DNA of 64,000 bases from Chloranthus sessilifolius. Its lineage: Eukaryota; Streptophyta; Magnoliopsida; Chloranthales; Chloranthaceae. The stretch spans positions 8,941,501 through 9,005,500 of the forward strand of contig CM037596.1 in NCBI GenBank assembly GCA_021018995.1. The letters run 5' to 3'. Of this stretch, positions 24,951 to 63,263 are shown piece by piece. The first letter of the stretch is position 1. Every line of letters starts with the position of its first letter. The notes beneath the pieces are model-generated. The model searched no databases. It was not told the origin of the DNA and worked only from the letters and a program-made list of their open reading frames with translations. The position numbers were made by a program, and so were the translations under genes.

Positions 24951-25316
24951 GTCATCGAGTAACTCGGCCGAGTTACTTGACTCTCCAGGATTTCGGTTTG
25001 AGTCCAAGTTGAGTCGAGATATCGCTAGGATGATGCAACTAGGGCTCATAAACTATGCTTATATACAGAAGACTTTCATTGGATAAGTTTTTAGAAACCC
25101 TATCTTTTTAAAAAGTGATAAACTACTCATTTTACTAACATATCTTTCCTTCTTTTTCTTCTGAAATATATATTTCTTTTGTAAAATATATATTTTAAAA
25201 ATATTTACTAAATTACCGAGTTGGAACAAGTTGAGTTTATCCGAATCTTTGAGTTAACTCGACCCAGTTGACTTTCGAGTCGAATCCAGTTATCGGATTT
25301 TCAAACCTTTGTACCA

Positions 25317-27263: not shown

Positions 27264-27414
27264 TGTCTCTTCATAGGGATCATAAGGTTATGAAAGCACC
27301 CTATAGCCACTGAATCCTATTAAAAGTTGACGTCCACGAGTCAAGGCCTTTGATACCTGTGTGTCAACTTTTGACAGGATTAAGTGGCTAAAAGGAATTT
27401 GTGCTTAGGAATAT

Positions 27415-29670: not shown

Positions 29671-30106
29671 TTTGTGTGTCCACTTTTTCTTTGATCTCTT
29701 TTTCTTCACGACTTTGTCACAATTCTAAGATGTGAATCTAAATTTCGCATATGATATGCCAATTCTTTTTCATCAGAACTCAAAAAACTAGAATATTTGT
29801 ACGTATCATCGTCGACTTCAAACTTGGGAAGGATCAATTTCTCTCAATTTTATGAGCTTTGCATCTAAGTGCGACCACTTTCTGCATCTTACACTCATCT
29901 TCTCTCAAGCTCTTTATTTTGCCTTTTTCCCTTGGATCGGTACTATCCAATTTACCAACCAGTAGAAGAGATAAGGCTGTGAGATATGATTTACCAGCAT
30001 TTCGTCTTTTCATGTCTACTGTTCTTGACTTTCTTATTTCAATAAATTCGATGTGTTTTCAATGCAAAACTTCTCTAAGCTGAGGCCTGGGATGACCTTC
30101 GAGCCA
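29671..30106. other. AT-rich DNA, possibly more of the LTR fossil interior
   Basis: No gene or defined repeat edge seen. Confidence 0.3.
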
Positions 30107-32736: not shown

Positions 32737-32862
32737 TTATGTGTACTCCTCAGGAAGACCAAATTCGGACATAACCATCCGACCTTCTATCATTCTACCC
32801 GTCTTAGGCATAACATGCCAGTGGAGCACGAGTTTGATTTTCTTGCGACGGAGGTTGCTACC
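32737..32862 (-). CDS. SPC3: SPC3 exon 6 (terminal)
   Basis: 41 codons plus TAA (32737-32739), entered after TTGTCCAG. It encodes [20 protein letters not shown] and the C-terminus GLPEEYT. The HWHVMPKTG core is the best-conserved part of the family. Confidence 0.93.
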   Translation of the reverse strand, partial: GSNLRRKKIKLVLHWHVMPKTGRMIEGRMVMSEFGLPEEYT

Positions 32863-35800
32863 CTGGACAAGTCAATAATTATATTTATTACAAAGAAAAT
32901 GATGATTTAGTGCATTAAAGTAAAAATAAAAAAATACACTGTTGGGCTCAAATACCGAATGTTTGCACTTGTGCCTTCATCACCATTCAATCTTATGATT
33001 GCATTAGTGCCTTGGTCAAACTACTGTCTAATGTATCAGCTGATATGTTACATATCTGTCGCAGGTTCGAGTCCAGCTTACTTATAAAAAATATATACAT
33101 TTATATATATCTATCTACATATCAGTTAGGAACCCCTATAAATTGCACTAAATTTGTACAAATTATGTTTAGAATATTATGCAAGACAAATTTTAGAAAA
33201 ATCTTTGGGATAGCTTTAGATATTTGTATTCCTTTTCTTTTTTCCTTATTAAAACTATGAAAAACTAGCACGGTACTTTAACATTTTGAATTAAATAGAT
33301 CTATAGTTCTCTATTAATTTTTTTAATATCAACAAAACACATATTACAAGGTTTCTTTTGCATAAATTAAGATAAATTTTCATATGTTCCAAGGACTGTG
33401 TTCAGGTCCAATTGGATGATTTCAACACCCTAGGAAACAGGGAATTCGGATGGGAAACCATTTGAAAAGACTAAAGTATGGTCTTTTAATATTTATTTAG
33501 ACTATACATTAGCTTTATAAATTGTTTCCACTTGAGAATCCCTAAATGTAAAGAATGAAATATCTAGGCCTGGCCAGAGCCAATTATTGAGCGAGCCTGA
33601 ACTATAGGTCCATGCCCAGTCCTGCAAGCCAGAACCTAGAGATTCCAGAACATGCCTGTAGAGGGCTCTACCCATGGTATCAAAACTCAGCTGATAACAG
33701 TACGTATCGATTTTGTTGAGAACTGATACCAATACCACCTCGATAAGATCGAGGTGGTATTGGTATTGGTATCGGTATCAGTATCAGTATCAGGCCGATA
33801 CGGGCCAGTATCGGCCAATACTGACCGATACAAATTCAATTTTCTTTTTTTCTTTTTTACTTTTCTCAAAAACAGGAAGACCGATTCAGTATCGGTGATA
33901 CCATATCAGCATCGGTCGATACATAACGGGCCAAGATGGACCAATACCCGATACTAACACCTTAGTTCAACCGAGGCAGCCAACAAGCCAATCATTGGCA
34001 CCCTTAATTAATGCCTAGAGGATATTATTCTACGTGGAGTTTCTTCTAAAGGTATTAATCTAGATCTACTCTAACGGGAGAAATGTGCAATTAACTGTCT
34101 GTGACTGATAAATCCTCAAAATTAGTGCCAATAGGAGAAAACCCACCAGTTTCAACTTTTGTAGTTTTCTCAGTTTTCTCATAGAAGCTTTTCATAATGA
34201 TAGGACTTTTCTTCTTTCAGGTCCCACCTCCCATCATCATTCAAGACTCAATTGGCCAGTGATGAAGGCCCTAACACTGACGAATCTGTGTTTTAAGTTG
34301 TACCAATATATTGCAACACATTGAAGAAATAAAGGAATCTTAGAAAACCTGCCTGATCGATTAAGGGATACTTGGTGGTGATACGGGTTTGGAACTTTGA
34401 GTGATCTTTGTCAAGGATTATTTGATCCCACAATGAGATCTGGAGACAAGGAAAATAAAAAACATCAGTATGTAATGGTTAACATGCACGTTTTTGCAGA
34501 TAATGTAGTTCAAATGAAATCATAGACAATTATAACGCCCCCAAAACTCCTAATGGAATCAATGTCTATCACTAACATCCGCCTCTGTAATTTTTTATTA
34601 CACAGAAAATAGTAGCCATTAGTGCAGCAGCTAACCAATTATAGGAAACCATGATGTTAGTTAAGTTGTGATATCAAGGTTTAGATGCTTAAATTCTGGT
34701 TTATTAAACAGAAGTAATAAAAGAAAATAAAATAGGTACACTGTGCCCCAAGAAGCCCAAATTTAAGACATTTATAACAGATGGATGATAGTTGGATATG
34801 TGTTTTAAATGATATTAAGCACAGCTATTTTGTGATTACGTGAAACACTTGATTCATCAACCTAAAGGAGAAGTGGCAGGGACCACAAGTCTCTTCGTCT
34901 TGCATAGCACTTCTGTTTAATTGGAATGTAACATTGCAGAAATTGCATGTGTGATTGGAAGTTTGCAAAAAACCGCATCATCATTATCATCATCATCACC
35001 GTCGTCATTATCTTCACATCATGATAGCCTTTTCCCATCTATTTCGAATCGGCTTTGCAAGTCCTATTTATCCACTCGTTTCTAATCAGTGCTAAGCTCT
35101 CTGTAATTTCGCAATTCTTCATGTCCTTTCTCACTGCTTCCCCGCAGGTCTTCAGTGATCTTCCTCTTCTCGTACTACCTTGTGCTTGTAGCGTCTCAAA
35201 CCTTCATACAAAGTCTGTTTCTGGCCACCGATGGGCATGTCTAAACCATCTCTAGCGACATTCCATAACTTTTTCCTTTATAGGTGTCACTCCCAAATTT
35301 CCTTTAACGTACTCGTCTTGAATTTTCTCCTTTCCTAACATATGCATCTTAGACACATGTACTCTATTTCTCCACCAAAAGCTGTAACATGAGTTGCTTA
35401 TAGTAGATTAGATCAGTGCCATCATAATCATAGCCTTCTCCCATCTATTTGGGGTCGGTTTTGTGAGTCCTATTCCTCCACTAATTTCTGATCAACCACT
35501 AAGGTCTTTGTAACTCCACAATCCTTCTTCATGTTACCTTTCACTGCTTCCCCCCATGTCTTCACTTGTGTTCATCTTCACCTACTTCTTTGTGCTCGTA
35601 GCATCTCAATCCTTTGTACAAGATCTGCTTCTGAGTTCCGACCTCCGATGAACATGTCAAAACCACCTCAAGAGGTATTTTGTATGTGTTTCCTTCGTAG
35701 GTGAAACTCTCAAATTTCTTCTTTGTTCTCGATCATAATTCTATCCTTTCTTGTTAATCCACATATCCATCTTTTTTTTTTTCTTTTTCTATTTTTTTTA

Positions 35801-38800
35801 TCGGTAAAAGTTCAATCAATATATCCATCTTAACATATGCATCTAGGCCCTAAGCATATTGTTGTTTTTTCATAGCCCAACATTTTGCACCATATAGTAT
35901 GGCAGGTCTTATCTTTGTCCTACAAATACATTCCTTCAATTGAAGTGCAACTCTTGGGACACAGAATACTCCACTTGTTTGTCTCAATTTCATCCAACCT
36001 GCATTAATCCTATTTAGGACGTCCTCCTCAAATACACTCTGATTGTAAAGTCGGGCTTAAATAACGAAATCTATGCAATATGGCACTAGATGGTTTTCTA
36101 TATTGACTAAATATTCCACTAAGCTATCATGTTCACTAAAGTTGCTTATAGGTAGATGGCCCTGCATTAAATAAATGTATATATGGCAAAAGCTGTCATG
36201 ACCTTGCACTAAATGAATATAAATATGGCACAAGCTACCTCCCCTCTTAAAAGGTACAAAGCCTTGCTACACATGGCACAAGTTGTTAGACCTTGCATTA
36301 AACATATATACACCTGGTACCAGTTGTAATAGTCTGGCACTAAATGAAGTTTTTATGACTCTTATTTTATTGAGAAGGAAGAAGACAAAAAATCTCCTAC
36401 AATAAATAGTCATCATAACTTTTATTTTACTGAGAGGACAAGTCCTCTTACACTTAATAAGAGAGATAAATCCTCTTCCATTTAATAAAGGGAAGAAATC
36501 AATGTCTTACTTGTTTGAGAAAGAAACTTTCTCCATGTCTTAAGACATGTTATAGTGTATCATCTTTACGAAAATTTTACTGCAATTTGGTATGAAAGTC
36601 AATGTGACTTCATTTCGCAAGAGCAAAAACTCCCTTTACAACTGGATGGAAATTTAGGTTAGATGACCAATATATAAATTTGAGTAGAAAGCTTCACCTT
36701 TGAGAAAAATAAATAAATATCAGAACTCAAATTACAGCCGAAGCAATAAACCATAATCTTCTAAGTATTCTAATGTTGATATTTAAGCATCGAAAGTGAA
36801 GGGCTGTCACAAGTTATAACTTACAAGTAAATTAGTGGCAAACCTGATTCAAGGAATTCTTGTCAGTTTCATACTCAGCTGCAATAAAGACAAAGACCTG
36901 CAAACCAAAGTCAGATTAATCCAGTAAGACGAATGTGGAATCTCCTAAAATGGTTGTACTGTGCCATCCTATATATCGGGAAACAGAAAAGCATCATATA
37001 CGTTTTAGATGTTTAAAGTTTAATAATTCCCTTCACAGAAAATTTTGTTGGACTGTAGAAAGATAGTCAAAAACAGCAACACGTCAAATTTCATTCTTCC
37101 GTGAGAGTGGTTTTCCTCTTTGCCGTTATGTTGGTGTTTATGGAAACAGTTTGTCATGATGTTACTTTCTTCAAGTTTGTATATTATAAACAATCAATAG
37201 ATGGTCGCCTTTACTTCGTAGCAACACAGCCTGCAATATTTGATGAGCCAGATGTGATCGATAAGGACCTATGTTACTTAATATGCTGATATAACCTGCG
37301 GATGGCGAATTGGTTTGCAGCAAACCAATTTGCTGTTCAATTTGGTCCAATTTGGTCCGATCCAGCGAACTGGGCGAATTGTAACGGAAGTATAAAAACC
37401 GCTTTAAAAGTCAAGTGCAGGTGGGGTGAATTGATCCCACGACCTTCAACTATGCTAGAACCAAACTTCCACACTGCCTAACCAACTAAGCTAGACCTTG
37501 TTTTAAAAACTTAACGTTAATAAATACATTTCAGTTTTATATCAACTTACCAAAAAAATAATAGTAAATAATAAAACTCATCCTACCCCTAGCGAATCGG
37601 TTTGCATGGGGGTAGCAAACTGCAAATTACAAACTCAAAAATGAATCGAGCAAAATGTGAATTAAGTAACATAGATAAGGACAGTAGGACACATGAGCAA
37701 TCAAATGATCCACAGTCGTGTTTCAGATTATATTATTACTGCTAATATTCAAACGTGAAGAGCTTCCTGTCTTTTCGCTTGAGAAAATAACTATTTGCTT
37801 ACTGCTCATATCTGGATATGAGGAGCTTCTGTCCTCATGCTTGAAACAGCAAAAGAGATTTTGATGCATCTGAGACACAAACCATACTGAATCAGGCCTC
37901 ATTGTCCACAGATGTCATGCACCGATGATACTAGGAACTTTTGTGAGCTGCCCTACATGGAATCAATTCTCAAGAAAATAAAGATTTGCACATCCCAACC
38001 ATATAAGCTCAAGTTAGTTTTGGTTATCTCTATTAGTTAGATTATATAAAATCTTTGAATAGATTAAATAAGATAATTAGTTTGACTTAGGAATACTTGT
38101 CTTTAGTTGGGAAATATTATAAATTAAGTGATGTAATCTCTTTTGGAAAAATCAATGAAGAAATTAGTTGAAGTCTAAGGAGAGTGGTCTTCTCGAATAT
38201 ATCAAAGAAAGTCCGGCTACCTCGAATCAGCCATCTTCTCACCTCTATTCTTTTTATATTTGATCCTTACGATACACGAGGTATCATAACAATTGGTACT
38301 AGAGCAGTCGATCTGGCAAGCGCCAAGTCAAATCTGCAATGTACTTAATGGTAAGGTCACAATTCCAATCTTAGAATCTAAGAGGCCCATGGAAGTTATG
38401 ACCATAGTTTACGCAATGAAATCATCGAGATTCCAGAAAGGGAACACGCTATTAGGATGAAACACAAATTATCCTTTCTCTGCAATAATAAAACAAACTG
38501 AAAGAGTTCACTTGAATGTTATCTTAATCGAGCAACCAAAAGGACCAAGTCCTTTGGAGGGGGCACATTCAAGATGCAGATGCTCTACAGGCACAAACTG
38601 TGGAGATGAGTTATCGACCACATTACATCTTCAGATGGGACCATCGGAGTGCAAGGATCCTAGTGGAACATGGTTCAATTTTCAAATTTCAACCCTTAAG
38701 AACAAGAGTGCTCAAGGAGGGTGGAATGTAACAATTATATTATGAACTTTTGTGAGCTGCCCTACACGGAATCAATTCTCAAGTTTAATAAAGATTTGCA

Positions 38801-39160
38801 CATCCCAACCGTATAAGTTTATCTAATTATTTTTGGTTATTTTTATTAGATTATATAGAAGCTTTGATTAGATTGATTAGATAGGAACTTTAATTAGTTT
38901 GAATTAGGAATACTTATCTTTAGTAGGAAAATATTATAATAAGTCATGTAATCTCTTTTGGGAATCAATGAAGAAAATAGTTGCAGTCTAAAGTGAGTTA
39001 TCTTCTCGAATAGATCAAAGGAGGCCCGGCTACCTCGAATCAGCCATCTTCTTACCTCTATTCTTTTTATATTTTATATTTTATCCTTACAATACATGCA
39101 GTATCATAGCAGAAGAGTTCAAATTAGAGATCAATAGATGGTATCAATCATCGGCCGCTA

Positions 39161-39240
<80 letters not shown>

Positions 39241-42200
39241 TCTAGCCAAATTCCTACTGATACTGAAAAAAAAAGAAACAATTTGCTTACTGCTCATATT
39301 TGGATATGAGGAGAGAAGCTCCTCCCGCTTGAAACAGCAAAAAAGATTTTGATGCATCTGAGACACAAATCCTACTGAATCAGGCCTCCTTGTCCATAGA
39401 AGAGCTAAAATTAGATATCAATAAATGTATGAAGTATCGGCCGATATCAATACGTAGCAGTGTGGCATCGGCAGTAGTGACCGATACTGATATCAGCTGA
39501 TACTGATACGTTTCGTCCTGATGCTAGATTTTCTTTATTTTTTAACTTTTATCAATTTTCCAAAAAAAAAGGTCAGTATTGAAAGTATCGGCCAATACAT
39601 ATCAGTATCGGCTGATACATATCGGTCCAAAGATCGGACATTTGGAAATACCAATACTGAGTTTGATACCTGATCAATAATAGCGAGATGAGAAGGACCC
39701 TTAACTAATGAATTTCAGATTAGGGTTCAAGCTACAGTAATTGTAATAAATCAATGAGTACCTTTATTTCCACCCACCAAATCTTTGAGTTCACCCACTT
39801 ATAGGGGTGTACAACTTTCAAAAACCATATCTTTAAGTTCACCCACTTATTCGGGTGAATATTTTGTAAAGGATTCACCCACATGAATTCTTTCGGCACA
39901 CCCACATCTTCCCCGCAAGATGACGGCAATGTCAGTGATGATGATGCCGATACCTACACAGGCGATGCTGAGGAAGAAGAAGCCAACGAAACCTCTTAAA
40001 ACCCTAAGAAGAAGAATCCATTAGCTTTTGGAACCCTAAGAAGAAGAAACCATGAAACCCTTTGAAACTCTAAGAAGAAGAAGCCATGAAACTTTCTTAA
40101 AACCACCCTTTGAAAAAAGAATAAAGAGGAGAAAAAGAGAAAGAAAACTTCAAAACTTATGTACTCCTCTTGAAAAATCTTTGAAAAGAAGGAGAAACGT
40201 AAGGAGAAGAAAAAGAAAAAGGGAAAAAAAAAAGTGTTTGTGTGTGACGGTGAGTAGCCATTGTCAATAATTTAAAACTGACGGTAGATACCCACTACCA
40301 GTTTTTCAAATCTGACAGTGGGTACCCACCATCAGTTTTAAGCCATTGACAGTGGGTACCCACCGTCGCACATATAGACATTTTTTTATTCTTTTTTTTC
40401 TTCTTACGTTTCTCATTCTTTTCAGGATTTCCAAGGGATTTTTATAAGTTTAAAGAGGGATGAGAAGATGAAGTGGGTTTTTTCTCCATTCACAAGGATG
40501 TATGACTGGCCGGAACGGAGGACTCGCCGGAATGAAAGGAGAAGTGGGTTTCATGGGGAAATATGACTCGCCGGAACGGAAGACTCGCCGGAACGATGGA
40601 GGAAGAGGAAGAAGATGAAAAATAGCACCCAAATAAGTGGGTGAACTTCAAGATTCACTCATCACCAAACCGAATCTTTGAGGGCACCCACAAATTGCCT
40701 CTTTTTCCCTTTGCACGTCTCTACGTGGGTGAACTCAAAGATTCGGTGGGTGGAAATAAAGGTACTCTAAATCAAATAGCAGATACTATTTTCTATTTCA
40801 CAATCACAAAGTCAATATTACATGGATTTATTTTTTCAGCCAAAGTAGTATTTTTGCTCAACTATCAATTTGCCAGGCTTATTAGTGGTTCAGTCAATGA
40901 GCAAGCAAGCAAGAAATAGGACATTGTTTCCCACTCTAGAAAGAAGACTATTGTGCTACATCAGCCACCTGTCATCAATAACTTAGAGCTTAACTTGCAC
41001 CCTCCTTTGTAGACAACACTTGAATTGTCACTTGTGGGAATCTTGTGAGAGATCTGAAAAGAAGGGAACAAACTGATATTTGAAAAGAAATAACACTCTT
41101 TGGTACGTCTTCACGCGATTATAGAGGACCTGGCCTGGTGGTGTTTAAGATTCTCGTGTTGGGTTGAGTTTGTCTCCAAGATAGACCACCTTATGGTTTT
41201 CCTTTCTTACTCTTGCCCAATGGAGGCTGATTTCTATTGCCAGCTTTTATTTTTTATTTTTTCTCATCTTTGCTTTTGTTTCTTTGGCAAAGCATCTCGT
41301 TGTGCCTCCTTTTGATCCGATATACTTTTGTCTGGTTTAATGAAATTATAGCTGCAATTTGATTTGTTTTTTTTTAGAAGAACAATGTGGTTGATCAAAT
41401 GTCTTATATCAAGAACTTGGCAGTGATGGGCATTCAAATTCTTATCAATGCCTTATCAAGAACTTGGTGCTTGGATTGCACCCTCCTTTATAGACGACTC
41501 TTTATGATAATGAGACTAAAAAAATCTGAAATATTAACGGAGACTTATTATTTCATATAGGACAAAATAGTTGATGGTACATTCTATCAATTATGAATAT
41601 TTTCAATCAATCTGCAAATCAACCTATTTAACAGTTGGCAAATATTTGCATATTGACCTCTCCAGTAAATTTTGAGGGGCATTCAAATTCTACATGTGTA
41701 GAGCATATTGATAGTTCGAATATTTTTTGTAGCAAATCCATGTATCAATATTTTAATCTTGTGATATTTCTCCCATATCAATTATTTTATAATTTCCAGC
41801 CTGTCTGTGTTTGTACATAAATCTATTAGGCCTGTCACAAATAACATACTAGAAGAGAAATATGAATGGAGAATGTACACAGATAGTGTCATGACCGTCC
41901 ACTTTCAGGCCAGGTGGTGCACATCGTTGATCAATCCATGTAGTCCAACTAGTAGCCAATCATTAGCAGGACTCAGCCAAAAAATCACGCCTATCAGAGG
42001 ATTAGAACCATCCCAGAGGCACACTTTAACCATTAAAAGATTATGAACAACCAATCATTTTCGAGCACATAGATTGGACAGTTGTGATCCCCATTGAATG
42101 TGATTTTTGGGGCTACTTCAGTCCAACATATGAGCTACCATTTTGACAACATGGGCCGATAAAAAACAGGTGCCACATGGCTTAAAATTGCGGCACTCAA

Positions 42201-47172: not shown

Positions 47173-47215
<43 letters not shown>

Positions 47216-53200: not shown

Positions 53201-54458
53201 AGCCCACTTGGCTCAGTCGCGTCCGTGTCGCGACCGCGTCTTACCCACATGCGACGGCGTCGCGCCCTCGCAACGCAACCACGTCGCCAGGCCCACTTGG
53301 CCCCATGTCGCGTGCCCTCCTGGCACCACATGTCGTGCCTCAAGCACCGTGCCGTGACTATGTCACGTCCATGTCGCGTCCGCATCGCGACCACGTCACG
53401 AGGCCCTCATGGCCTTATGTCCAGCATAGCACTGTGTCGCGACCATGTCGCGTCCGTGTTGCGACCATGTCACGTGCCCTCATGGCACCACATGGCGTAC
53501 CCTCATGGCACCGCATCACGTCTGAGTCGTGACTGTGTCTCGTGTCCACTCGACACCATATCGGGCCTGTCATTACACCCGGATGCCGCGTGCCCTCTTA
53601 GCACCGTATCGCTTGCCGTACAAGCTAGATGTCGCGTGTCCTCTTGACACCACATCACGTGCCATCATGGCACTGCCTCGCGTGCCTTATAGCACTCGGA
53701 CGTCGCGTGCCCTCTTGACACAATATCGCGTGCCCCTACTCGGAGCACCGCATTACGTGCCTTATGGCACTAGGACGTCGCGTACCCCTACGCAGAGCAC
53801 CGCATTACGTGCCTTATGGCACTAGGACGTCGCGTGCCCTCTTGGCACCACGTCGCGTGCTCCTATACAGAGCACCGCATTTCATGCCCCCACGTGCGTC
53901 TATTCGCGTCGCATCGTATATAAGGGACACCTGCACGCGTTGCAGGGCCGCGTGCCTCTGCGCCCACGCGTGCTAAACAGCTAGTTACAAAGTCCGCTTG
54001 CCTTCGTGCTAACTAAGTGCCCAGTTCCAAGGTCGTCATGCCTTCATACTGGCGCACATATTAATGAGGCCATAACACACAGGTGCCCTAAAATCTTTTT
54101 TTTTTCACTTTATAAACCACAAGTGCCTTAAAATATTTTTTATTTCCTACTTTATATTCATATATATATATATATATAATTATTAATATCATTGTCATTT
54201 AATGTGGGATATTAGTGCACAATTTTTGTTCACTGTTGCCATATATTAGTGCCCAATATCTATAAACGTTTCCCCTTCGTACACAAATTAATCACTTGTT
54301 TATTGATTTTTAGAGTTTAGAATGTGGTAGATTTGATAATGTAAATTTAACCTTCTGTTTAAATGTAATGAATATTTAGATGGATGATGTTTTATGATTT
54401 TCTAATTATTAAATGGATGGGATATGGACAATAATGAATTTTCATCTATTAAATATTT

Positions 54459-54511
<53 letters not shown>

Positions 54512-57500
54512 TAACCCAAGTCGGAGCGAGTCGAGTTGGACCGATTTTCCGCAGTAACTCTACTCAGATCATTTTCAAGTCGAGTCAAGTTTCCGTGTTT
54601 AAAAACCATGATTGGAACCGTTATTGATGATGGAGCAGTTATTGGAACGGTTACAGTTATTGATATTGGCATCTGGTTGACTGGGTTAGATTGTTTATTG
54701 AGTGTGGCACCGGGTTGACTCGGGTATGATTGTTTATTGAGTGCGGCACTGGGTTGACTCGGGTATGATTTTTTATTGAGTGTGGCGACGCCAACATCGT
54801 AGACATCGAATATGGACCTTTTCGAGTGTACCGACGTCAGAAGAAGCGAAATGGAAATCAAAACTAAGTGAAAGAGGAAATTCTGGAAATGTAAAGGAGG
54901 CCCGAGTACCGTAGCCTCAGAGGAGAAACAGATACAAATCGCGAGGAGAACAGTGTCGAGCGAGCCCTCGCTCGAGCGGTTAAAATCCTCGCTTTAGCGA
55001 GCCCTCACTCGAGCGACCACTTAAGCTCGATCGAACGATCCCTTGCTCAAGCGGTTAAAATCCTCGCTCGAGCGAGCTACAGTGAGGGAAATTTTCTTTT
55101 TTTTTTTAATCTTTTTAGTCTTTTATTATTTTAGGACTCTTTTATTGCGAGCTTTATATCGTTTAGAATTTTCTTAGCCTATATAAAGACATTGTAAACA
55201 CTCTATTAAGAGATTGATTATTGATGATGAATGAAAAGAGCTTTTGCTTGTGTGTGCTTGAGATGAGCTTCTATGAAGAGTGAATCTTCTTCCCGAGAAG
55301 GGTTTGGTGCGAAGCCAAGGGTGTGAAGCATCCCAATCTATCTTATTTTCTCTACTTGTGTGATTCTACAACCCCAAATTGATTATCATTCTTGTGAAAT
55401 CCTAAACCCTGATTTTCCCTGAACCCTTGAATCGATCTGATTCAACAACTGTAGAACCCAACTGAATTATTAAACCTTCCGCACCAAATATTCAGAGAAA
55501 ATCAGTGATCCCATCATTGAATCGTAAGCGCTCTAATATGGGAAAACCTAGAGTTCTATCTCTAGGATCGATCTGCGCTGCAATCTAACAGATCTAGCGC
55601 CAGACTGAACCCTGCCTGCATTATGCGTGGTTCTCCCATGGAATATTACAAAAACCTGAGGTATTCGTTATATTTTGCAAGTTTTATTATTTATTTAATT
55701 CCAATTTAATTTCGGCAAAATTAATAATTGCATTCACGTAGTTTAGGGTACCGTCCTGCATCAGTTTTGGTATCAGAGCCTAGGTTCTAGGTTAGGGCAT
55801 ATTGGTGTGACATTTAATTCCATAGCATTTTAATTGCATCTTATTTCAGTTTTTATTTGTGCACATCTAGTGTTTGATAAAAGTCCTCATTCATTGTTGG
55901 TTCATATGTGCATGTCATTTTAATTTAATTGAATTTTATTTCATTTGTATTCATCAATGTGCACGTCTTATGTTCAACAAAAGTCCTTATTCGTTTTGAG
56001 TCACATGTGTGTGTTATTTCGATGTCTTCGATCTCATGACATTTGTGTGCATGTCATATGTTTGTTAAAATTCCTCAACTGTTGTGTGGTCCATAAAATT
56101 GTGTCTAGGTTGTGTTTGTGTCAAGCATCATGTATGAGTCACTTACACGTCACTATGACTTCCTTGCACGTCATGAGAGGGTACTAATTGAACAAGGAAA
56201 TCGCTACACACCAAAATATTGGCAAAGTCCCAAAAGTCGTTATGAGACTAGAGTTAGGGGATACCCTCATCAGCGTGAACCCGAGTACGATCCCGCCGAA
56301 AAGTTTTTAAAATCTATTCGGGATGAAGTTCCATGTTTTGAGGGATGGCTAAACCCCAAAATCTTCGTGGAATGGTTATCTAGTGTGGAAGAGTATTTTG
56401 ATTGGTATGGTGTACCGAATGAGCACAAAGTTAGGTTAGTGAAAACAAAGTTTAAGAGTAATGCCAAAATTTTTTGGAATCATATAGAATGCGGTATTGA
56501 ATTTCGTTAGATTAAACTCATCTCCATATGGGAGGATAAGAAGGTGACACTTATTGAAAAGTATGTTCCTTTAACACGCCGTCACCTTCTAAGGAGTTGG
56601 AGAACCACGACAAATAAGTGTCCTGATTGTCTTAAGTGTCAAGGGTATGGACACTTTGCTTACCAATGCCCCATAAAACTTCCAACTTCGAATTTATTGA
56701 TTAAACGAGAAAATTCTAAGGAGCCGAAAAATATGAAAATAGAAGAGGAAGTGTATGACCCTAGAACCGTGATAAGCGAAGAGGAGATGGAAGAAGCTGA
56801 CGAAAGTCTCGTTTGTGTTAAAGAGACTTCTATCTCCCTTGTGGATAGTGATGTTGGGTCGAGTACACGTGAGTCCATCGAACTGGGTACGCAAGAACCA
56901 TTGGTGTTAATTGAATCGAGTACCCCAGAGTCTTTGGCTTTGGTTGACGCGAGTATGCACGAGTTCATCGAGTTGAGTGCACTTGAATCTTTGAAGTTGG
57001 TCGAACCGAGTACACATGAGCCAATCACTTCACCTACCAATGAGTCATTAGAATTCGTTGAGTCGAGTCCACATGAGCCAATAGTGCCACTTGATTTGAT
57101 CACACATGAGTCGTTAGTGTCGCATGCACATCATAGTCTCAAGTTGTATATTGCTATACATTCCAAGTCTTATTGTGAGTCATCTTTTCAGTCTCATTCC
57201 GCATTGCATGCCGAAATTAGAAAAAGAGTTAATGCTAGCAATGAACAATACAAAATATCTGCGGATGCTTATAGGCGCTTCAAGGAATTCCAGGTTGGAG
57301 ATTACGTCATGGTTCGGGTTAGGCCTGAGCGGTTCCCATTGGGAGATGCAAAGAAACTTCAAGCCCGTGGCGCTGGGCCTTTTAGAATTGTGGCAAGGAG
57401 CGGCCCTAAAGCATATATTCTTGAGCTTCCACCAGATATAGGGGTCAGCTCTACATTCAATGTAGAGGACCTGGTTCATTCCTTAGCCCAAGCCCCACCC

Positions 57501-59859
57501 CCTCACAACCCTTCCAAGCAGCCTCGAGCCCGAATATCAGCCCCACCCTACAACCCCTACCTTTCCCTTCCCCACGCAAGCAGCGTAGAGATGAGATCGA
57601 AAGGATATTAGATGATTTGGCAATATCCACCCATAGGGGCGGAATTCAAAAGTACTTGGTCAAGTGGTTGGGAAGGCCGGAGTCTGGTTAGCTGAAGACG
57701 AAGTGCGACGTTTGGACCCCGACATGCTCGAGCGCTATCACGACGCCGCTTCATCGGTGATGAAGCCTTTTCGGCCCTGGAGAATTGATGGGGACGCCGA
57801 CATCGTAGATATCGGATATGGACCTTTCGCGTATACCAACGTCGGAAGAAGCGGAATAGAAATCAAAACTAGGCGAAAGAGGACATTCTGGAAATGCAGA
57901 GGAGGGCCGAGTACCGTAGCCTCAGAGGAGAAATGGACACAAACCGCGAGGAGAACAATGTCGAGCGAGCCCTCGCTCAAGCGACCACTTAAGCTCGCTC
58001 GAGCGATCCCTCGCTCAAGCGGTTAAAATACTTGCTCGAGCGAGCTATAGTGACGAAAATTTTCTTTTTTTTACCTTTTTAGTTTTTTTTTTATATTTTA
58101 GGACTCTTTTATTGCAAATTTTATATCGTTTGAGGTTTTCTTTGCCTATATAAAAGCATTGTAAACACTCTATTAAGGGATTGATTATTGATGATGAATG
58201 GAAAGAGCTTTTGCTTGTGTGTACTTGAGATGAGCCTCTACAAAGAGTGAATCTTCTTCTCGAAAAGGGTTTGGTGCGAAACCAAGGGTGTGAAGCCTGC
58301 CAATTTATCTATCTATCTATCTTATTTTCTCTGCTTGTGCGATTCTACAACCCTAAATTGATCATCATTCTTGTGAAATTCTAAACCCTGATTTTCCCTG
58401 AACCTTTGAATCGATCGGATTCAACAACTGTTGATCCCAACTGAGTTATTAAACCTTCCGCACCAAATATTCAGAGAAAACCAGTGATCCCATCATTGAA
58501 TCGTGAGCGCCCTAATATGGGAAAACCTAGAGTTCTATCTCTAGGATCGATTTGCGCTACAATCTAACGGATCTAGTGCCCGGACTGAACCCTGCCTGAA
58601 TTATGTGTGATTCTCCCATGGAATACTACGAAAACCTGAGGTATTCGTTATATTTTACAAGTTTTATTGTTTATTTAATTCCAATTTAATTTCGGCAAAA
58701 TTAATCATTGCATTCACGTAGTTTAGGGTACCGTCCTCCGTCACACTGTGTTGACTCAAGGTTGATTGTTTAGTGGGTGTGACATCGGGTTGACTCGAGG
58801 GTGAATGATTTGACTCTGTGGTGTCAGTGGAAAGGGTATTGTTTTTTTTGTGTGTCCCAGGCTTAGGATGAAACGGGGATGAGGGAGATTCAGTGGCAGC
58901 GATCTGGTTGATGTTTTTTGAAGGGTTGGGATAAGGAAAAGAACGAGTTATCTCCATTGGGGATAACTCGCTCAGCACCTTCCCTTATTGTCTGATTTAA
59001 CATTGGACGAGAGTTCATCCCAGGTAAGGTGAGAGTACCACTATGACCTCCTTTCTTGGATATCTCTCGAAATTTGTCGCCTTGAGCCAATTCCAATACT
59101 GCTTTGTTGTAGGATATCCATCATAATCCACACAATCTTTTCGCAGAAGAAACAGAAAGTGGGTAGACGCTCATGTTGAAAATTTATCCATACCGGATCC
59201 TGATCCTCCATCTGAAGAAAAATACCTCTTCGAAGTGGCTTAGTAATATTAATGATGACCCTAATACGTAAGTATTTTCCCCAGGCCCTACCTTCGTCAT
59301 CCGTATCCACGTTTAGCACTTCTCCACAACTATTACCGATATTAAATCCCAACGATCTATTCATGGCCCCAATCAGTAAGCCGATTACTCTGATCCAAAA
59401 GGCGACTTTTTTCAAACGATATCTTTGCTATTGGAATGTCACCATTTAACTTGGATAGCACCAGAATATGGTTATCAAAACACCATGGACCCATCAATTG
59501 CACTCTTTTCAACTGAATTGCATCTTGGAATTTGAAAAGGAAGATGTTTCTCATCCATCTCCTTCACGTGTATCCTATTATGGAGATTTCCATGCGCGGA
59601 TGATGCTCTCTTTCGCAGCTTCTTTTTTTTATTTCCGAGAACTTATATATTATAAAAATGTCATAACTTATAAGTATTATACGTTATTATCCAAAAAATA
59701 AAATAGCGTACATAGCGATATCATAAATGCTATTTCTCTATGGCGTCGCTATTTAGTCATCATGGCTATTGGTTATATGTGGTGTTTCCCATCGCCATTC
59801 GCCATGGCGAGGCTATAGCTTGACCTTGATTAAGACAAAATATCAAGATGAAATCATAA

Positions 59860-59922
<63 letters not shown>

Positions 59923-62900
59923 CTCTTCACTTGAGTTATAGATTTGAATTGCACTTGAGTCATAGAGTTGAACTCTACACTCGAATCATTTGGGTGTCAC
60001 GTGGCATACAATCCAAGGATCCGGTGCCATGGCCACATGCACAAATGACTCGATCCTTGGTGGTCAAAGTTTGAAATTTTTTAAAGGTTAAAATTGTTGG
60101 GTGACAATTCATATCTTTGACCCATGAAATGAAGGGCAAAAAAATTAATTTTTTAACATTTTTTTCTTTAACCCTAGAGGGGCTGGTGAACCCTTAGAGA
60201 ATGTGATGCAACTCAAGATCACGTGACACATGATCCACACTCAAGTAGAGTTGGAACTCTACAACTCAAGTGCAGGGATCCCTTAACCTATATACAGGGA
60301 AAAGGGATGGTAAGCACGAGGGTAGCGCCCAAGTGCTACCCATGAGGGCTAGATCACATGCCATGTGGAATGTGATCAACAACAAAAAAATCCATTTTGG
60401 ATACTACATCCATAAGGCCTGGGATTTGTACAAAAAATTGATAGTTATGACTTTTTTGCCCTTCAAATCATAGGTCAAACATAAGGTAATGCTGACCTGC
60501 AATATGCATTAATTTTTTTCCCCAACTTTGATGACATATTTAACGGTGGATAAGCATCGGATCCTGCTCAAATTTTTTGGGTGGGACCTAATCGATCTTG
60601 TTCAAGTTGTTGTGTCACCCGATCTTCGAGTTCGGTCACATGGAGCCCAGCTGGATCGTGGATAGCACCAAGACGCTACCCCCATGGATAGCATCCTGGC
60701 CCTCATATATATATATATATATATAGTTGTGCAACTCTCAAGGTTTCACTATTTTGGCATAAGGGGATAGACCCGAGCACTGCCGGTAGTTCTTGGGTCA
60801 AGTACCTAAATCCAACTCTTCCATAAATGAGTAAGTATTAGGTAAGCAGCCCGAGTGCCAAGTGATGTAGATCACATGACACTTTTTGGGACGTCATGTG
60901 TGCCATCTTATTTGAAGACCATGATCTAAAAATATATGGTTCAAAAGATTAAGATGAAAAAGCATATCCATCATGTGTGATTCAAAGCAGTCACAATGGT
61001 TTTAAATTAGCAGTTTCGGTGATTTACATGGTTGTTGTTAATTTTTAAAAGGCGAGACTGCTTTGAATCACGAGATAGAAATGTTTTTCCCCTAATCTTT
61101 TATGTTGTAGATCTTTCGATCGTGGTCTTCAAATCAGACAACACACATAATGAAACCATGTGACATGTGTGCCAAAAATTGGCCCGTGAACCAAGTCACC
61201 AGGCACTTGGGCAGCTACCTAATACTAACTCCAAATTGGTGAGAATCAATCAGTCACTAAAATATTTTTTATTTACAATTTGATTAAAATATTTTTTATG
61301 GATTTGCATGCACTTGCAACCATAGTTGTGGTTTAGGAATAAGTTGGCAAGAGGAAAATTCGGAAAAAATTTTTTGAAAAGTTTGAGAAAAAATCGAGGA
61401 AAAAAAAAAATTCTGAAATTCAAAAACATGAGATTAAAAATTTAAAACTCGTGATTTATTGAACATGTCACAAATTCGCGATTTGATCGTGAAATTCGTG
61501 ACTTTTTCTAAAAAATACAATTTCTCGAAAAAAGCCGTGATCAAAATGCGATTTGTTCGTTTTACGAATAAGTAGCGTTTTATTTGCGACTTTTTCAAAA
61601 AGTGGGAGAACATGGTGACTATGATTGCAACAAATCACTTGATAAAAATTCAAAAAAAAATAAGATAAAAAATATGAAAAACATAAGAAATTGAAAAATT
61701 CGTGATTTATTCAATAAATCACAAATTAATAGCGATTTAATCAAAAAATTTGTGGCTTATTCAAAAAGTGATTTCTTGAAAAAGTCATAATTAAAATGCG
61801 ATCTGTTCGTTTTATGAATAATTCATGGTTTATTTGCGACCTTTTTCAAAAAGTCAGGGAACTTGGTGACTATGCTTGCAACCTATGTTACTTAATTCGC
61901 TCATTCACCCAACAAATCGCAAATTGAATACTGCGAATAGAATATGGCATAACAAGCCAATTGTCGAATTAATGTTGAGAATTTTACTTATAATAAAGTT
62001 TTGAAAGCATATAAAGATGGCTTATTGAAAAAAAAGAAAGCATAAAAAGATGATTTGAACCTAAAATCTATTCTAATTAAGAAATAATAATAAACCCATC
62101 CTACCCCATAGAATTGAATTCGTTGGAAAATAGCGAATTGCCAATTGCAATATCAAAACTGAAAAAAAATTGTGATTTATTGAAAAATCCCAACTCAAAT
62201 GTGATTTAACCATGAAATTCGTGACTTTTTCAAAAAACTAAGATTTTTTGAAAAACTAGTGATTTGTTCATTTTATGAATAAGTCACGTTTTATTCGCGC
62301 CTTTTTCAGAAGTCAGGAGAATTTGGTGACTATGCTTGCAACGCATCACCTCATAAATTTTAGGCCCAAAAATAAAAGAGTGCCTTTAAATCCACCCACA
62401 AAATCTTTGAGTTCACCCACGCTGAAACACATTGACTGCGTTGAATCAATCTTTCACACGATGGATCTTGAGATCATGGGCGTACCATCAAACGGTTAGT
62501 GTTTTATTTCACGTGGCACACATCTAAAATAAGTGGCCTTAATATCACGTCCAAGTTCAAAATTGGATTTAAGGTCACTTTTTTTGGTGTGTACCACATG
62601 AAATAAAAAAATAGACCGTTTGATGGTACACCCATGATCTCAAGATCTATTGTGTAAAAGATAGAAAGTATAAACGATCTCCATTGCCTGATTCAATGTA
62701 GTCAATGTGTTTCGGCGTGGCTGAACTCAAAGTTTTGGTAAGTGGATTTAAAGGTACTCAAAATAAAAACCCTGGGCTCTTAAAAAATTCGTAAACCCTG
62801 GGGGCTCTTAAACTTTAACCCGGAGGGGTAGCTCTGTTGGTCAGGCCTTGGGTTTGCTTCCCAATGGTCACCGGTTCTAGTCCCCCAAGGCCACTGGAGT

Positions 62901-63263
62901 ATTACCCGGTTCGTTAGCTCCAGCGCCCGTGGGATTACGCTAGGTGCGCGCAAGCTGGCCCGGACACCCACGGATACGAAAAAAAAAAAAAAAAAATCGT
63001 AAACCCTGATCATAACATCAGAAAACAATCCAAATTCATAAACCCTAATCATAATACCACCTATAACTATTTCAAATTAAAATCTAAACTAAAATAAAAT
63101 TGGAAACGAAATTCAAATTTGGGCGAGAGTTCATCACCTGGGTGTTAGCTTGTACAGAGGGGGTGTTGAAGTTATCAGAGACAGAGGCCAGGGTGCACAT
63201 TAGCCCGAGCAGGACGCCTGCAAATGTCAAGAGGGTGTTCAAACGATACCCAAACGAGTGCAT
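32737..63263 (-). CDS. SPC3: Signal peptidase complex subunit 3 (complete, six exons)
   Basis: Exons on -, in order: 63138-63263, 45951-45998, 42301-42363, 36844-36897, 34353-34439, 32737-32862. Every junction is phase 0 and the product is 167 residues, the length I recall for plant SPC3. The N-terminus, [20 protein letters not shown], is a short cytosolic tip running into a membrane anchor (about residues 9-29). The lumenal domain has [18 protein letters not shown] with an N-V-S sequon at Asn64, [30 protein letters not shown] and [15 protein letters not shown]3 is a type II ER membrane protein and a core subunit of the complex that removes signal peptides from secretory proteins; it supports the catalytic Sec11 subunit and is not itself the protease. 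No stop or frameshift was found. Four introns are GT-AG; intron 5 requires a GC donor. The 30.5-kb span comes mainly from transposon insertions in the introns. Confidence 0.94.
33674..33965. mobile_element. MITE with GTATCGG interior (family C) in SPC3 intron 5
   Basis: Left tip ATGGTATCAAAACTCAG. Interior rich in GATACC, TATCGG and CAGTATC words, with a strong hairpin around 33728-33764 (CCAATACCACCTCGAT, 3-base loop, then its complement). No target duplication was found, so the right edge is approximate. Confidence 0.55.
34353..34439 (-). CDS. SPC3: SPC3 exon 5, followed by a GC donor
   Basis: 29 codons ([16 protein letters not shown]... to LIDQ) after TTGTCTCCAG. The exon must end at CAG 34353-34355, because the next exon begins with GGT in phase 0; the intron then starts GCAGGT. 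Using the nearby GT four bases on would create a TAG at the junction. Confidence 0.9.
34440..34975. other. SPC3 intron 4, 3' part
   Basis: No recognisable element up to the RTE fragment. Confidence 0.45.
34976..35400 (-). mobile_element. RTE-clade LINE 3' fragment
   Basis: On - it ends in CCGATTCGAAATAGATGGG...AAGGCTATCATGATG and a GAT/GATGAT-rich tail (34976-35010), the terminal motif and microsatellite tail typical of plant RTE LINEs. It duplicates the 3' part of the neighbouring fragment. Heavily decayed; it lies in SPC3 intron 4 in the gene's own orientation. Confidence 0.7.
35410..36060 (-). mobile_element. RTE-clade LINE fragment with end of reverse transcriptase
   Basis: Conceptual translation on - gives [18 protein letters not shown], then [19 protein letters not shown], the thumb-side end of plant RTE reverse transcriptase, and further on [19 protein letters not shown] near the C-terminus. 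The fragment ends with CCGACCCCAAATAGATGGG on -. Frames are interrupted by several stops. 5'-truncated. Confidence 0.78.
36061..36843. other. SPC3 intron 4, 5' part
   Basis: Holds loose repeats of CATGGCACAAGCT and CACTAAATGAA words (about 36075-36360), perhaps a decayed tandem repeat. No gene. Confidence 0.4.
36844..36897 (-). CDS. SPC3: SPC3 exon 4
   Basis: 18 codons, [18 protein letters not shown], between TTTGGTTTGCAG and GTTTGCC; both junctions phase 0. Confidence 0.94.
37269..37673. mobile_element. Mutator-type MITE, GCGAATTGG/TTTGC interior, in SPC3 intron 3
   Basis: Inverted tips CTATGTTACTTAATATGC and, from the right, TATGTTACTTAATTCAC. A perfect 9-bp duplication, GATAAGGAC, at 37260-37268 and 37674-37682. 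Inside, on -, AGCTTAGTTGGTTAGGC and GGGATCAATTC (about 37430-37497) look like pol III boxes A and B, so a small tRNA-derived SINE may be nested here. Confidence 0.82.
37795..37912. repeat. Local duplication, copy 1
   Basis: About 118 bp (TTGCTTACTGCTCATAT... to ...GCCTCATTGTCCACA), repeated at about 39282-39402. The TRIM element inserted at its right end. Confidence 0.7.
37913..39111 (+). mobile_element. TRIM (miniature LTR element), fossil
   Basis: Direct repeats of about 380 bp, roughly 37913-38291 and 38727-39111, end in GTATCATAACA and GTATCATAGCA. Directly after the first is ATTGGTACTAGAGC, a diverged initiator-Met primer site. Just before the second is a purine tract, CAAGGAGGGTGGAA. 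The interior is only about 435 bp with no recognised coding domain, the definition of a TRIM. Left edges are approximate. It lies in SPC3 intron 3, antisense to the gene. Confidence 0.75.
39164..39237. repeat. (TA)n microsatellite
   Basis: About 37 TA units, placed within a GTATCGG-type MITE remnant (39130-39163 on its left). Confidence 0.95.
39282..39402. repeat. Local duplication, copy 2
   Basis: Matches 37795-37912 except for a short difference near 39315. Here it is followed without interruption by AGAAGAGCTAAAATTAGATATC; copy 1 is followed by the equivalent segment only beyond the TRIM. Confidence 0.7.
39415..39690. mobile_element. MITE remnant with GTATCGG interior (family C)
   Basis: Packed with TATCGGCCGATA, GTATCGG and CTGATACG words around a T-rich middle, the same layout as 31925-32213 and 33674-33965. 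Tips are diverged; edges approximate. Confidence 0.55.
39756..40767. mobile_element. Long foldback Mutator-type element (family A) in SPC3 intron 3
   Basis: About 1 kb. The left end GAGTACCTTTATTTCCACCC and its exact inverse at the right end pair, and the pairing goes on through CACCAAATCTTTGAGTTCACCCAC. The flanks TAAATCAAT (39747-39755) and TAAATCAAA (40768-40776) are a 9-bp duplication with one mismatch. Inside, TTCACCCACTTAT words recur near the left end and three degenerate GACGGTGGGTACCCACCGTC palindromes lie at 40235-40375. Frames such as 40052-40270 are low-complexity Lys/Arg runs, not genes. Confidence 0.83.
40777..42300. other. SPC3 intron 3, 5' part
   Basis: No gene. TTGCACCCTCCTTT occurs twice (about 40996 and 41477), hinting at a small duplicated repeat. 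A T-rich stretch at 41240-41360 (CTTTTGTCTGGTTTAATGAAATT) resembles an L1 3' end and may be a truncated LINE tail. Confidence 0.4.
42301..42363 (-). CDS. SPC3: SPC3 exon 3
   Basis: 21 codons ([20 protein letters not shown] and Gln) between TTGTCTACAG and GTTTGG; phase 0. It includes the N-V-S glycosylation sequon of the lumenal domain. Confidence 0.94.
42593..42778. mobile_element. Mutator-type MITE, GTACCGG/CGATAC interior (family C), SPC3 intron 2
   Basis: Inverted tips ATGGGTTAAAATACCGG and, from the right, CATGGTCAAAATACCGG. The flanks TAGGTAACC (42584-42592) and TAGGTAACA (42779-42787) are a 9-bp duplication with one mismatch. The interior is a long palindrome of ATGTATCG, CCGGTA and CGATACGT words. 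Confidence 0.82.
43246..45264 (-). mobile_element. Copia-like non-autonomous LTR element (fossil)
   Basis: Terminal direct repeats, 43246-43518 and about 44985-45264, start on - with TGTTGGATAT and TGTTCGAGATAT. They share the segment with TGACTACATTGTTGCT. Inside the right-hand repeat, on -, GGTATAAGAGCGG is a diverged initiator-Met primer site. Flanks CAGTT (43241-43245) and CAGAT (45265-45269) may be a 5-bp duplication with one mismatch. The CAACACTCCCCCTCAAGTTG stretch after the left repeat is common near copia LTRs. About 1.5 kb interior, no recognised pol. Old and broken; in SPC3 intron 2, same strand as the gene. Confidence 0.6.
45270..45950. other. SPC3 intron 2, 5' part
   Basis: AT-rich DNA; no element recognised. 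Confidence 0.4.
45951..45998 (-). CDS. SPC3: SPC3 exon 2
   Basis: 16 codons, [16 protein letters not shown], after a strong pyrimidine tract and TTTTTTTTCAG. The donor, GAG-GTTCTG, is weak. Phase 0 both sides. Confidence 0.92.
45999..46739. other. SPC3 intron 1, 3' end
   Basis: No gene. A weak palindromic patch with TACCGG and GGTATATAC words (about 46190-46320) may be a decayed family C MITE. Confidence 0.4.
47175..47213. repeat. (GA)n microsatellite
   Basis: About 19 GA units, 40 bp beyond the LINE poly(A) end. Confidence 0.95.
47290..51610 (-). pseudogene. Second LINE ORF2 (endonuclease, RT, zinc region, RNase H), decayed
   Basis: On -: endonuclease [19 protein letters not shown] and FLMETKL (about 51580-51470), [16 protein letters not shown] (about 51175), SNHLPI (about 50900); reverse transcriptase [17 protein letters not shown] (about 50235), [20 protein letters not shown] (about 50050), [15 protein letters not shown] (about 49650), [11 protein letters not shown] (about 49535); zinc-binding [18 protein letters not shown] (about 48105); RNase H with [14 protein letters not shown] and [13 protein letters not shown] (about 47600-47510). 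FADD is intact. Several frame breaks and the MITE at 48128-48341 make it inactive. Confidence 0.85.
48128..48341. mobile_element. Palindromic Mutator-type MITE (family C) inside the LINE ORF2
   Basis: Inverted tips ATGGGTTAAAATATCGG and, from the right, CATGGATCAAAATATCG. A perfect 9-bp duplication, ATTTAGACC, at 48119-48127 and 48342-48350. The interior is an almost continuous palindrome of CGATACGTATCG, CGGACGATAC and ACATTCAATGTATCG words. Insertion into a LINE of known sequence makes both edges certain. Confidence 0.9.
51620..52185 (-). pseudogene. Second LINE ORF1, C-terminal part
   Basis: Ser/Thr/Pro-rich tail on -, ending in a stop at 51620-51622, just before the ORF2 frame begins. 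It is separated from the rest of ORF1 by the 52195-54610 element. Confidence 0.65.
52600..53980. repeat. GC-rich degenerate tandem repeats
   Basis: Rough repeats of CGCGTGCCCTCATGGCACCAC and GTCGCGACCATGTCGCGTCC types (clearest 53180-53900). Open frames on both strands (53142-53825 on +, 52867-53394 on -) come from GC richness and repeats and show no known domain. CTATATAAGG occurs at about 53111 and GTATATAAGGG at about 53917, so part may derive from a promoter-bearing LTR. Confidence 0.55.
54462..54507. repeat. (TA)n microsatellite
   Basis: About 23 TA units next to the right arm of the Mutator-type element. Confidence 0.95.
54620..54780 (-). pseudogene. Second LINE ORF1, repeat segment
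   Basis: Three tandem copies of a unit of about 39 bp (TGACTCGGGTATGATTGT...) which on - encode a 13-residue repeat, [13 protein letters not shown]-like. Two more diverged copies lie beyond the LTR element at 58746-58825. Confidence 0.65.
54781..55763 (+). repeat. 5' LTR, family II third copy
   Basis: 983 bp, CTCGAGCG array at about 54955-55080, TATATAAAG promoter at about 55180. Confidence 0.86.
57786..58743 (+). repeat. 3' LTR, family II third copy
   Basis: 958 bp, TGATGGGG to CGTCA. Shorter CTCGAGCG array at about 57962-58050. Confidence 0.88.
58744..59620 (-). pseudogene. Second LINE ORF1, N-terminal part (DUF4283, knuckle remnant)
   Basis: On -: [20 protein letters not shown] and CFDNHILVL (about 59550-59460), then [20 protein letters not shown], and [10 protein letters not shown], the remnant of a CCHC knuckle (about 59160). 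The DUF4283 fold begins before FLFKF in intact relatives, so the 5' end is missing. Frames shift at least once. Confidence 0.7.
59864..59920. repeat. (TA)n microsatellite
   Basis: About 28 TA units abutting the next MITE. Confidence 0.95.
59921..60287. mobile_element. MITE with long inverted repeats beside (TA)n
   Basis: Left arm GCACTTGAGTCATAGAGTTG and onward pairs with right arm ...CTCTACAACTCAAGTGC over about 60 bp. The left side is a long (TA)n tract, the right a short TATATA. It carries no coding sequence. Confidence 0.65.
60295..60704. mobile_element. MITE with GGTAGCGC inverted arms beside (TA)n
   Basis: Left arm GGATGGTAAGCACGAGGGTAGC pairs imperfectly with the right arm, which reads from outside GGATGCTATCCATGGGGGTAGC. 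A (TA)n tract follows at 60705-60725. A fragment of the same family lies at about 30520-30640. Confidence 0.62.
60826..61235. mobile_element. Foldback MITE with GAGTNAGTATTAGG ends
   Basis: Left end GAGTAAGTATTAGGTAAGCA and, from the right, GAGTTAGTATTAGGTAGCTG. Pairing continues through GAGTGCCAAGTGA and ATGTGACA/TGTCACAT. A second inner pair, TTCAAAGCAGTC and GACTGCTTTGAA, makes the whole element palindromic. Target duplication not resolved. Confidence 0.65.
61380..62343. repeat. Three tandem copies of a repeat of about 240 bp
   Basis: Copies at about 61390-61630, 61650-61880 and 62160-62343 each run through TCGTGATTTATT..., GCGACTTTTTCAAAAAGT and end GGTGACTATGCTTGCAAC or close to it. A MITE of the CTATGTTACTTAAT type (from about 61888 to about 62155, kin of 37269-37673) separates copies 2 and 3. 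Confidence 0.65.
62378..62759. mobile_element. Foldback Mutator-type MITE (family A), SPC3 intron 1
   Basis: Left end GAGTGCCTTTAAATCCACCC and, from the right, GAGTACCTTTAAATCCACTT; pairing extends through GATCTTGAGATCATGGG. A perfect 9-bp duplication, AAAATAAAA, at 62369-62377 and 62760-62768, although the A-rich sequence makes chance matches easier here. Confidence 0.8.
62801..62996 (+). mobile_element. tRNA-derived SINE with poly(A) tail, SPC3 intron 1
   Basis: Box A-like GGGGTAGCTCTGTTGGTC (about 62824) and box B-like GGTTCTAGTCC (about 62872) are spaced as in a tRNA. A unique region follows, then an A tail (about 62979-62996). A perfect 12-bp duplication, TCGTAAACCCTG, at 62789-62800 and 62997-63008 shows insertion by a LINE-type mechanism. 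It lies about 130 bp inside intron 1 from exon 1, antisense to SPC3. Confidence 0.85.
63138..63263 (-). CDS. SPC3: SPC3 exon 1 (start codon)
   Basis: ATG at 63261-63263. 42 codons encode [20 protein letters not shown] and onward to [10 protein letters not shown], the cytosolic tip and membrane anchor. Donor CAG-GTGATG. No earlier in-frame ATG precedes it in the short A-rich leader, and the MHSFGYR start is what I recall for plant SPC3. Confidence 0.94.

Follow-up and report, generated by a model that had tools for sequence, protein, structure and literature searches.

How does a gene of 167 codons come to occupy 30.5 kb, and is it the one copy on which the plant depends? The locus lies in a 64-kb stretch of the Chloranthus sessilifolius genome, hereafter the window, which is placed at C13:8941501-9005500 in an assembly of 2.17 Gb and 32 contigs. 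We favour, with a probability of about three in four, an intact and anciently duplicated SPC3/SPC22 gene whose five phase-0 introns sit at positions common to a second copy on contig C4 and would owe their length to one transposon insertion after another.

Structural annotation

The gene is read on the minus strand from 63263 to 32737, a span of 30527 bp, and has six exons of 126, 48, 63, 54, 87 and 126 bp, which sum to 504 bp, that is, 167 codons and a stop. All junctions are in phase 0 and there are no internal stops. Exon 1 (63138..63263, codons 1-42) opens with the start ATG and ends at the donor CAG|GTGATG; exon 2 (45951..45998, codons 43-58) ends at GAG|GTTCTG; exon 3 (42301..42363, codons 59-79) at CAG|GTTTGG; exon 4 (36844..36897, codons 80-97), a copy of which lies with its flanks on contig C5, at CAG|GTTTGC; and exon 5 (34353..34439, codons 98-126) at the GC donor CAG|GCAGGT. 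Exon 6 (32737..32862) holds codons 127-167 and the stop TAA. When the window was searched by tblastn with an Arabidopsis SPC3 protein, the six exons were matched in order at E-values of 8e-14, 1e-10, 7e-8, 1e-7, 9e-7 and 6e-4. This search and the exact exon table bear out the first-pass annotation, which had described six unbroken SPC3 exons totalling 504 bp, all in phase 0.

The same annotation had given introns of about 17.1, 3.6, 5.4, 2.4 and 1.5 kb and a gene that is over 98 percent intron, and both figures hold on measurement. Intron 1 (45999..63137, minus strand, as are the others) is 17139 bp long and holds a nest of L1 and LTR elements; introns 2 (42364..45950), 3 (36898..42300) and 4 (34440..36843) measure 3587, 5403 and 2404 bp; and intron 5 (32863..34352) is a GC-AG intron of 1490 bp. 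With 504 of 30527 bp coding, 98.35% of the gene is intron.

The donor of intron 5 deserves attention. Four introns are GT-AG and one is GC-AG, so nine of the ten intron ends are canonical and the tenth is this GC donor. Among the donors read at intron 5, CAG|GCAGGT alone yields the family reading DQ|GSNLR, and the earlier total of 504 bp implies the same donor, though this was unstated there. Apart from its GC, CAG|GCAGGT agrees with the U1 consensus. A GT donor 4 bases downstream was also considered and ruled out; it shifts the frame. The available part of PMC1769492 gives no frequency figure for GC-AG introns. The window gene has an intact frame, a start, a stop and usable-looking splice sites, while its splicing is a prediction. 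No tRNA gene (ARAGORN being run with the bacterial code) and no RNA gene of another known kind turned up in the 64-kb window.

Functional annotation

The 167-residue product scores 172.2 bits with the Pfam family SPC22 (PF04573), whose cut-off is 25, residues 1-165 covering positions 1-173 of the 173-position profile. The C4 copy scores 189.6 bits against the same profile and Arabidopsis SPC3 192.2 bits. Two SPC3 sequences from solved structures also match the window protein (1.3e-20 and 1.8e-20), which aligns without gaps to Arabidopsis SPC3 with 102 of 167 residues identical and keeps 39 of the 47 residues that the C4 copy has in common with a solved SPC3 chain. Judged from its sequence, the locus is an SPC3/SPC22 subunit gene of the ER signal peptidase complex, with expression and membership of the complex predicted.

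Transposons in the introns

The introns had been described as holding at least a dozen mobile elements, a plausible count, and L1, LTR and MITE-like elements can indeed be identified in them; it is because transposons fill its introns that the gene is stretched to 30.5 kb. A normal coding length, here 167 codons, combined with such elements in the introns is what one expects of a transposon-expanded long gene.

An L1 insertion with its nested elements (47252..59637, minus strand, the same direction as SPC3) takes up about 12.4 kb of intron 1, which is 17.1 kb long. The poly-T at 47252 is read as the poly-A tail of the L1, and in a related, L1-free repeat on C4 the two L1 flanks adjoin each other, so that the insertion can be placed from 47252 to about 59637. 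A clear target-site duplication was not seen at the ends of the L1 insertion, and none was established from the flanks of the LTR element nested in it.

The description of this intron as holding a full L1 nest stands in part. The L1 retains an ORF1 piece (59044..59427, minus strand) with DUF4283 and the zinc knuckle zf-CCHC_4; a reverse transcriptase in two open pieces (49409..50261, minus strand), for which RVT_1 scores 39.8 bits at 49409-49831 (cut-off 29.6) and 28 bits, slightly below that cut-off, at 49956-50261; and zf-RVT and RNase H-like RVT_3 pieces (47285..48145, minus strand) at 26.3 bits, slightly below the cut-off of 27.5, and 51.1 bits, respectively. An LTR element is nested inside, as claimed. 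The L1 is, however, broken into many frames, and the piece tested for the endonuclease region (50748-51209) had no Pfam match, so that "full" is too strong a word. Four of nine L1 pieces (48415-48687, 49061-49405, 50176-50880 and 50748-51209) were assigned to no family, nor was the piece at 51623-52066.

The LTR retrotransposon nested in the L1 (54783..58745) is on the plus strand, opposite in direction to SPC3. Its LTRs (54783-55764 and 57789-58745) differ at 83 of 940 sites, which corresponds to an age of 3.7, 11.9 or 23.9 million years if the rate is taken as 1.3e-8, 4e-9 or 2e-9. Its inner ORF carries SH3_Tf2-1 and a zinc knuckle below cut-off; from the former we read the element as probably gypsy-type.

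Smaller repeats link the window to the C4 gene. An inverted-repeat, MITE-like element (62378..62759) is related to sequences in the C4 gene and at other places in the window, a small repeat inside the L1 (48124..48343) recurs in the introns of the C4 gene, and G+C-rich repeat pieces (53012..53673) recur in its intron 1. Introns 1 to 4 of the window gene contain MITE-like and other repeats that are common to the C4 stretch or to other parts of the window.

Repeats are also found in the window outside the gene. An LTR element nest at 16796-25022, related to the LTR element of intron 1, has an outer pair of repeats (16796-17857 / 23965-24952), an inner pair (19274-20235 / 22186-23108) and an ORF (20405-21721) that carries SH3_Tf2-1. 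Two direct repeat pairs, 8588-9534 / 11326-12279 (within 8588-12279, 86.7%) and 27414-28408 / 28643-29675 (within 27414-29675, 78%), are possibly the LTRs of other elements. Beyond the gene on the plus strand, 13986-15399 is L1-like, with an RVT_1 piece and a zf-RVT piece below cut-off.

A second SPC3 gene

Where the first-pass annotation had suggested looking for a second SPC3 copy in intronless or compact form, the assembly holds a second complete gene, at C4:44871738-44968066, that is neither. Its exons lie at 44968066-44967941, 44937033-44936986, 44921089-44921027, 44889637-44889584, 44887969-44887883 and 44871863-44871738, with lengths and phases identical to those of the window copy, and its introns are GT-AG throughout, intron 5 included. 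It is no processed or compact copy, as all five introns are retained; they measure 30,907, 15,896, 31,389, 1,614 and 16,019 bp. The gene thus spans 96,329 bp for 167 codons, 0.52% coding and 99.5% intron. It is stretched further than the window gene, being three times longer (96.3 vs 30.5 kb).

The assembly search with the window protein gave 18 matches at E <= 10, with 22 candidates scored, and the search with the C4 protein gave 20 matches, with 20 candidates scored. Among the best candidates scored there are at least two complete SPC3 genes, those of the window and of C4, and since scoring covered the best candidates only, there may be a further, more diverged copy. The remaining matches to SPC3 are single exons and one weak match on C8. 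A family search of the assembly (20 candidates scored) listed exon 6 of the C4 gene alone and missed the window's own exons, so its silence carries little weight.

The window gene is therefore not the only intact SPC3 gene in the genome. The label "housekeeping gene" that it had been given finds no support as it stood: a complete copy exists on C4, and this copy is nearer to Arabidopsis SPC3 (125 vs 102 of 167 residues), which makes the window locus one of two old duplicates.

Divergence and constraint

The two Chloranthus proteins are identical at 105 of 167 residues, the window and Arabidopsis proteins at 102, and the C4 and Arabidopsis proteins at 125. Between the two genes pS is 0.735, dS is about 2.96, which is saturated, and dN is 0.252; the resulting dN/dS of 0.085 (bootstrap 95% 0-0.20) is rough because of that saturation. 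Fourfold sites are identical at 14 of 38. A near-saturated dS beside a low dN argues for old duplicates under long purifying selection.

A comparison with the solved chain 9rjb_D also bears on constraint. At the sites where C4 agrees with that chain the window copy keeps 39 of 47 residues, as against a match with C4 at 52 of the 94 other sites (Fisher P 0.0008), and where the window copy agrees with the chain C4 keeps 39 of 44. By these two counts the long-term constraint on the one copy looks much like that on the other. When neutral drift was simulated until 20% of the amino acids had changed, 17% of frames were stop-free, and the same estimate puts the chance of no indel at about 0.005 for an assumed indel/substitution ratio of 0.1. 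We conclude that the window gene is most probably an old duplicate that has been under selection for most of its life.

The copies differ in how far they have moved from Arabidopsis SPC3. Residues that differ in one protein alone number 32 for the window, 9 for C4 and 12 for Arabidopsis. A relative-rate test against Arabidopsis gives 32 vs 9 (P 0.0003). This does not prove that the window copy evolves faster, since the duplication may be one to which Arabidopsis is no outgroup; when the solved chain takes that place the difference is small, the counts being 8 vs 5 (P 0.41). The excess in the window copy may reflect faster evolution or a duplication older than the split from Arabidopsis. Measured against Arabidopsis, the window copy appears as the more diverged of the two old duplicates.

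SPC3 exons copied elsewhere

Exons of both genes recur in other parts of the genome. A 2.58-kb stretch of the window (36587..39165) that covers the end of intron 3, exon 4 and the start of intron 4 has a 96.6% copy on C5. This copy (within C5:113957454-113977453) is flanked by a pair of 2.16-kb inverted repeats, 97.7% alike, and adjoins tnp2-type transposase pieces (Transposase_21, DUF4218, DUF4216 and Transpos_assoc), of a kind that marks CACTA elements. A matching pair of CACTA end motifs was not found around the C5 copy.

A 520-bp piece of the C4 gene with exon 5 is present elsewhere six times whole and once split, at 85-89% identity to the source. The carriers are on contigs C1, C7, C12, C13 and C15, with whole copies on C1, C13, C15, C7, C12 and C13; the stretch C1:99727243-99740739 belongs with this family, and the tenth row of the search with the 520-bp piece is a weak partial match on C2. 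The six whole carriers are parts of a long repeat family, their long common stretches being 93.7-98.3% alike, while identity is 92% in some further pieces and 68-74% in short pieces some 330 bases long. The left end of the carrier is GGCCTCGTTCAGGTG, preceded by TTA or TAA in five of the six copies; no right end matching it was found in the 10 kb examined per copy. One copy holds a DDE_Tnp_4 transposase piece. This domain and a TTA/TAA (TWA) target site are linked to the PIF/Harbinger superfamily, and the combination points to a PIF/Harbinger-like family.

When elements of this sort take up exons of the host, one speaks of Pack-TYPE transposition, with Pack-PIF and Pack-CACTA among the types named in the available part of PMC8903248. 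The exon-5 family resembles these in carrying and multiplying a host gene fragment (520 bp, six whole copies and one split). One carrier holds a transposase piece, and the far end of the element was not found, so the family may or may not fit the strict, non-autonomous Pack definition. SPC3 exons appear to have been spread by transposons, exon 5 of the C4 gene into a repeat family and exon 4 of the window gene to C5.

Is the size of the gene unusual?

One should not mistake the length of this gene for an anomaly. Excerpts of the Chloranthus spicatus genome paper (PMC8626473) report that, among 2,184 high-confidence orthologs, 876 are longer than 20 kb, whereas the figure is 2 for rice and 0 for Arabidopsis, and name LTR elements as the major contributor. 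Mean introns are 3,681 bp in that species and 1,270-2,390 bp in six magnoliids (PMC8626473, PMC8626421 and PMC7917104). In Magnolia biondii, with a genome of 2.22 Gb that is close in size to the 2.17 Gb here, introns average about 2,774 bp with a median of 525, and some are exceptionally long (PMC7917104, in the portion available). The window gene resembles the long genes of these Chloranthales and magnoliids (PMC8626473, PMC8626421 and PMC7917104, all in part) in its normal coding length and transposon-swollen introns; the sole difference noticed lies in its 17.1-kb intron, most of which is an L1 nest that encloses an LTR element.

More distant lineages offer likenesses in their many-kb introns with LTR or LINE content. 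Gymnosperms have introns longer than 20 kb in which LTR elements or LINEs occur (PMC9364684), and in grapevine long introns have led to genes being split in annotation (PMC3058033), as stated in the accessible parts of both sources; the first-pass annotation had feared such splitting for this locus. Such long genes being common in Chloranthus and not exceptional in large plant genomes, a 30.5-kb SPC3 gene is to be expected here, and its stretching is ordinary for a plant genome of this size.

Competing explanations

The preferred reading, an intact old duplicate lengthened by transposons, draws on what is directly observed: the frame, the splice sites, the family membership, the second copy, near-saturated silent and low amino-acid divergence, and the nested insertions. 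Within it, the window gene could be a specialised SPC3 paralogue that works in a single tissue or for a particular class of secreted proteins, with a role like that of the nodule-specific SPC22 (DNF1) of Medicago. The duplication is old and both copies have been kept, and specialisation of a plant SPC22 has a precedent in Medicago, whose dnf1 mutant has defective nodules without a developmental phenotype, in the part of PMC3464683 that is available. Old duplicates may, however, equally be retained to share dosage, and we hold this sub-case tentatively, at well under even odds. Equally speculative, in our estimation, is a broader version in which the window gene would represent a second deep lineage, duplicated at or before the seed-plant or early flowering-plant radiation, with a specialised signal-peptidase role, the copies having grown to 30 and 96 kb and each having independently donated exons to transposons.

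A different account is that the C4 copy works and the window copy is a young pseudogene, silenced too recently to have acquired stops. Silencing in the last few million years is possible with an intact frame, the second copy nearer to Arabidopsis does exist on C4, and at 32 of its 167 positions the window protein has an unusual residue while C4 and Arabidopsis agree with each other. Splicing could be lowered by the GC donor and by the weak-looking donor GAG|GTTCTG, and the GC donor is derived, C4 having GT at intron 5. Yet all six exons, the start and the stop are intact, all but one of the ten intron ends are canonical, that one being a GC donor which matches the U1 consensus at its other positions, and a low dN beside a near-saturated dS speaks for long constraint. 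We consider recent silencing unlikely. That the window locus is the plant's single housekeeping SPC3 gene is highly improbable, its intact frame notwithstanding, given a second intact gene on C4 that is nearer to Arabidopsis SPC3.

If the window locus is the intact old duplicate that we favour, it would be transcribed across 30 kb, and the spliceosome would cut out the introns together with their transposons, using at intron 5 a derived GC donor whose pairing with U1 is otherwise good. The route that depends on IBM2 and EDM2, and also on ASI1, acts by masking poly(A) signals. Heterochromatic introns are spliced and the transcript passes through them with IBM2 and EDM2 in Arabidopsis, as the accessible part of PMC4417168 has it, and the intronic transposons of SPC3 may likewise be kept in heterochromatin that is no bar to the transcript. 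In that case the 167-residue protein would belong to the signal peptidase complex, where it would be redundant with the C4 copy or act in tissues of its own.

Implications

The two SPC3 copies have equal exon lengths and intron positions at 30.5 and 96.3 kb, and so form a matched pair for the splicing of transposon-filled introns. They are also a fully mapped case of how far a tiny gene stretches, and one that urges caution in gene annotation. As a lead for the biology of the plant, the old, diverged duplicate is more interesting than size alone.
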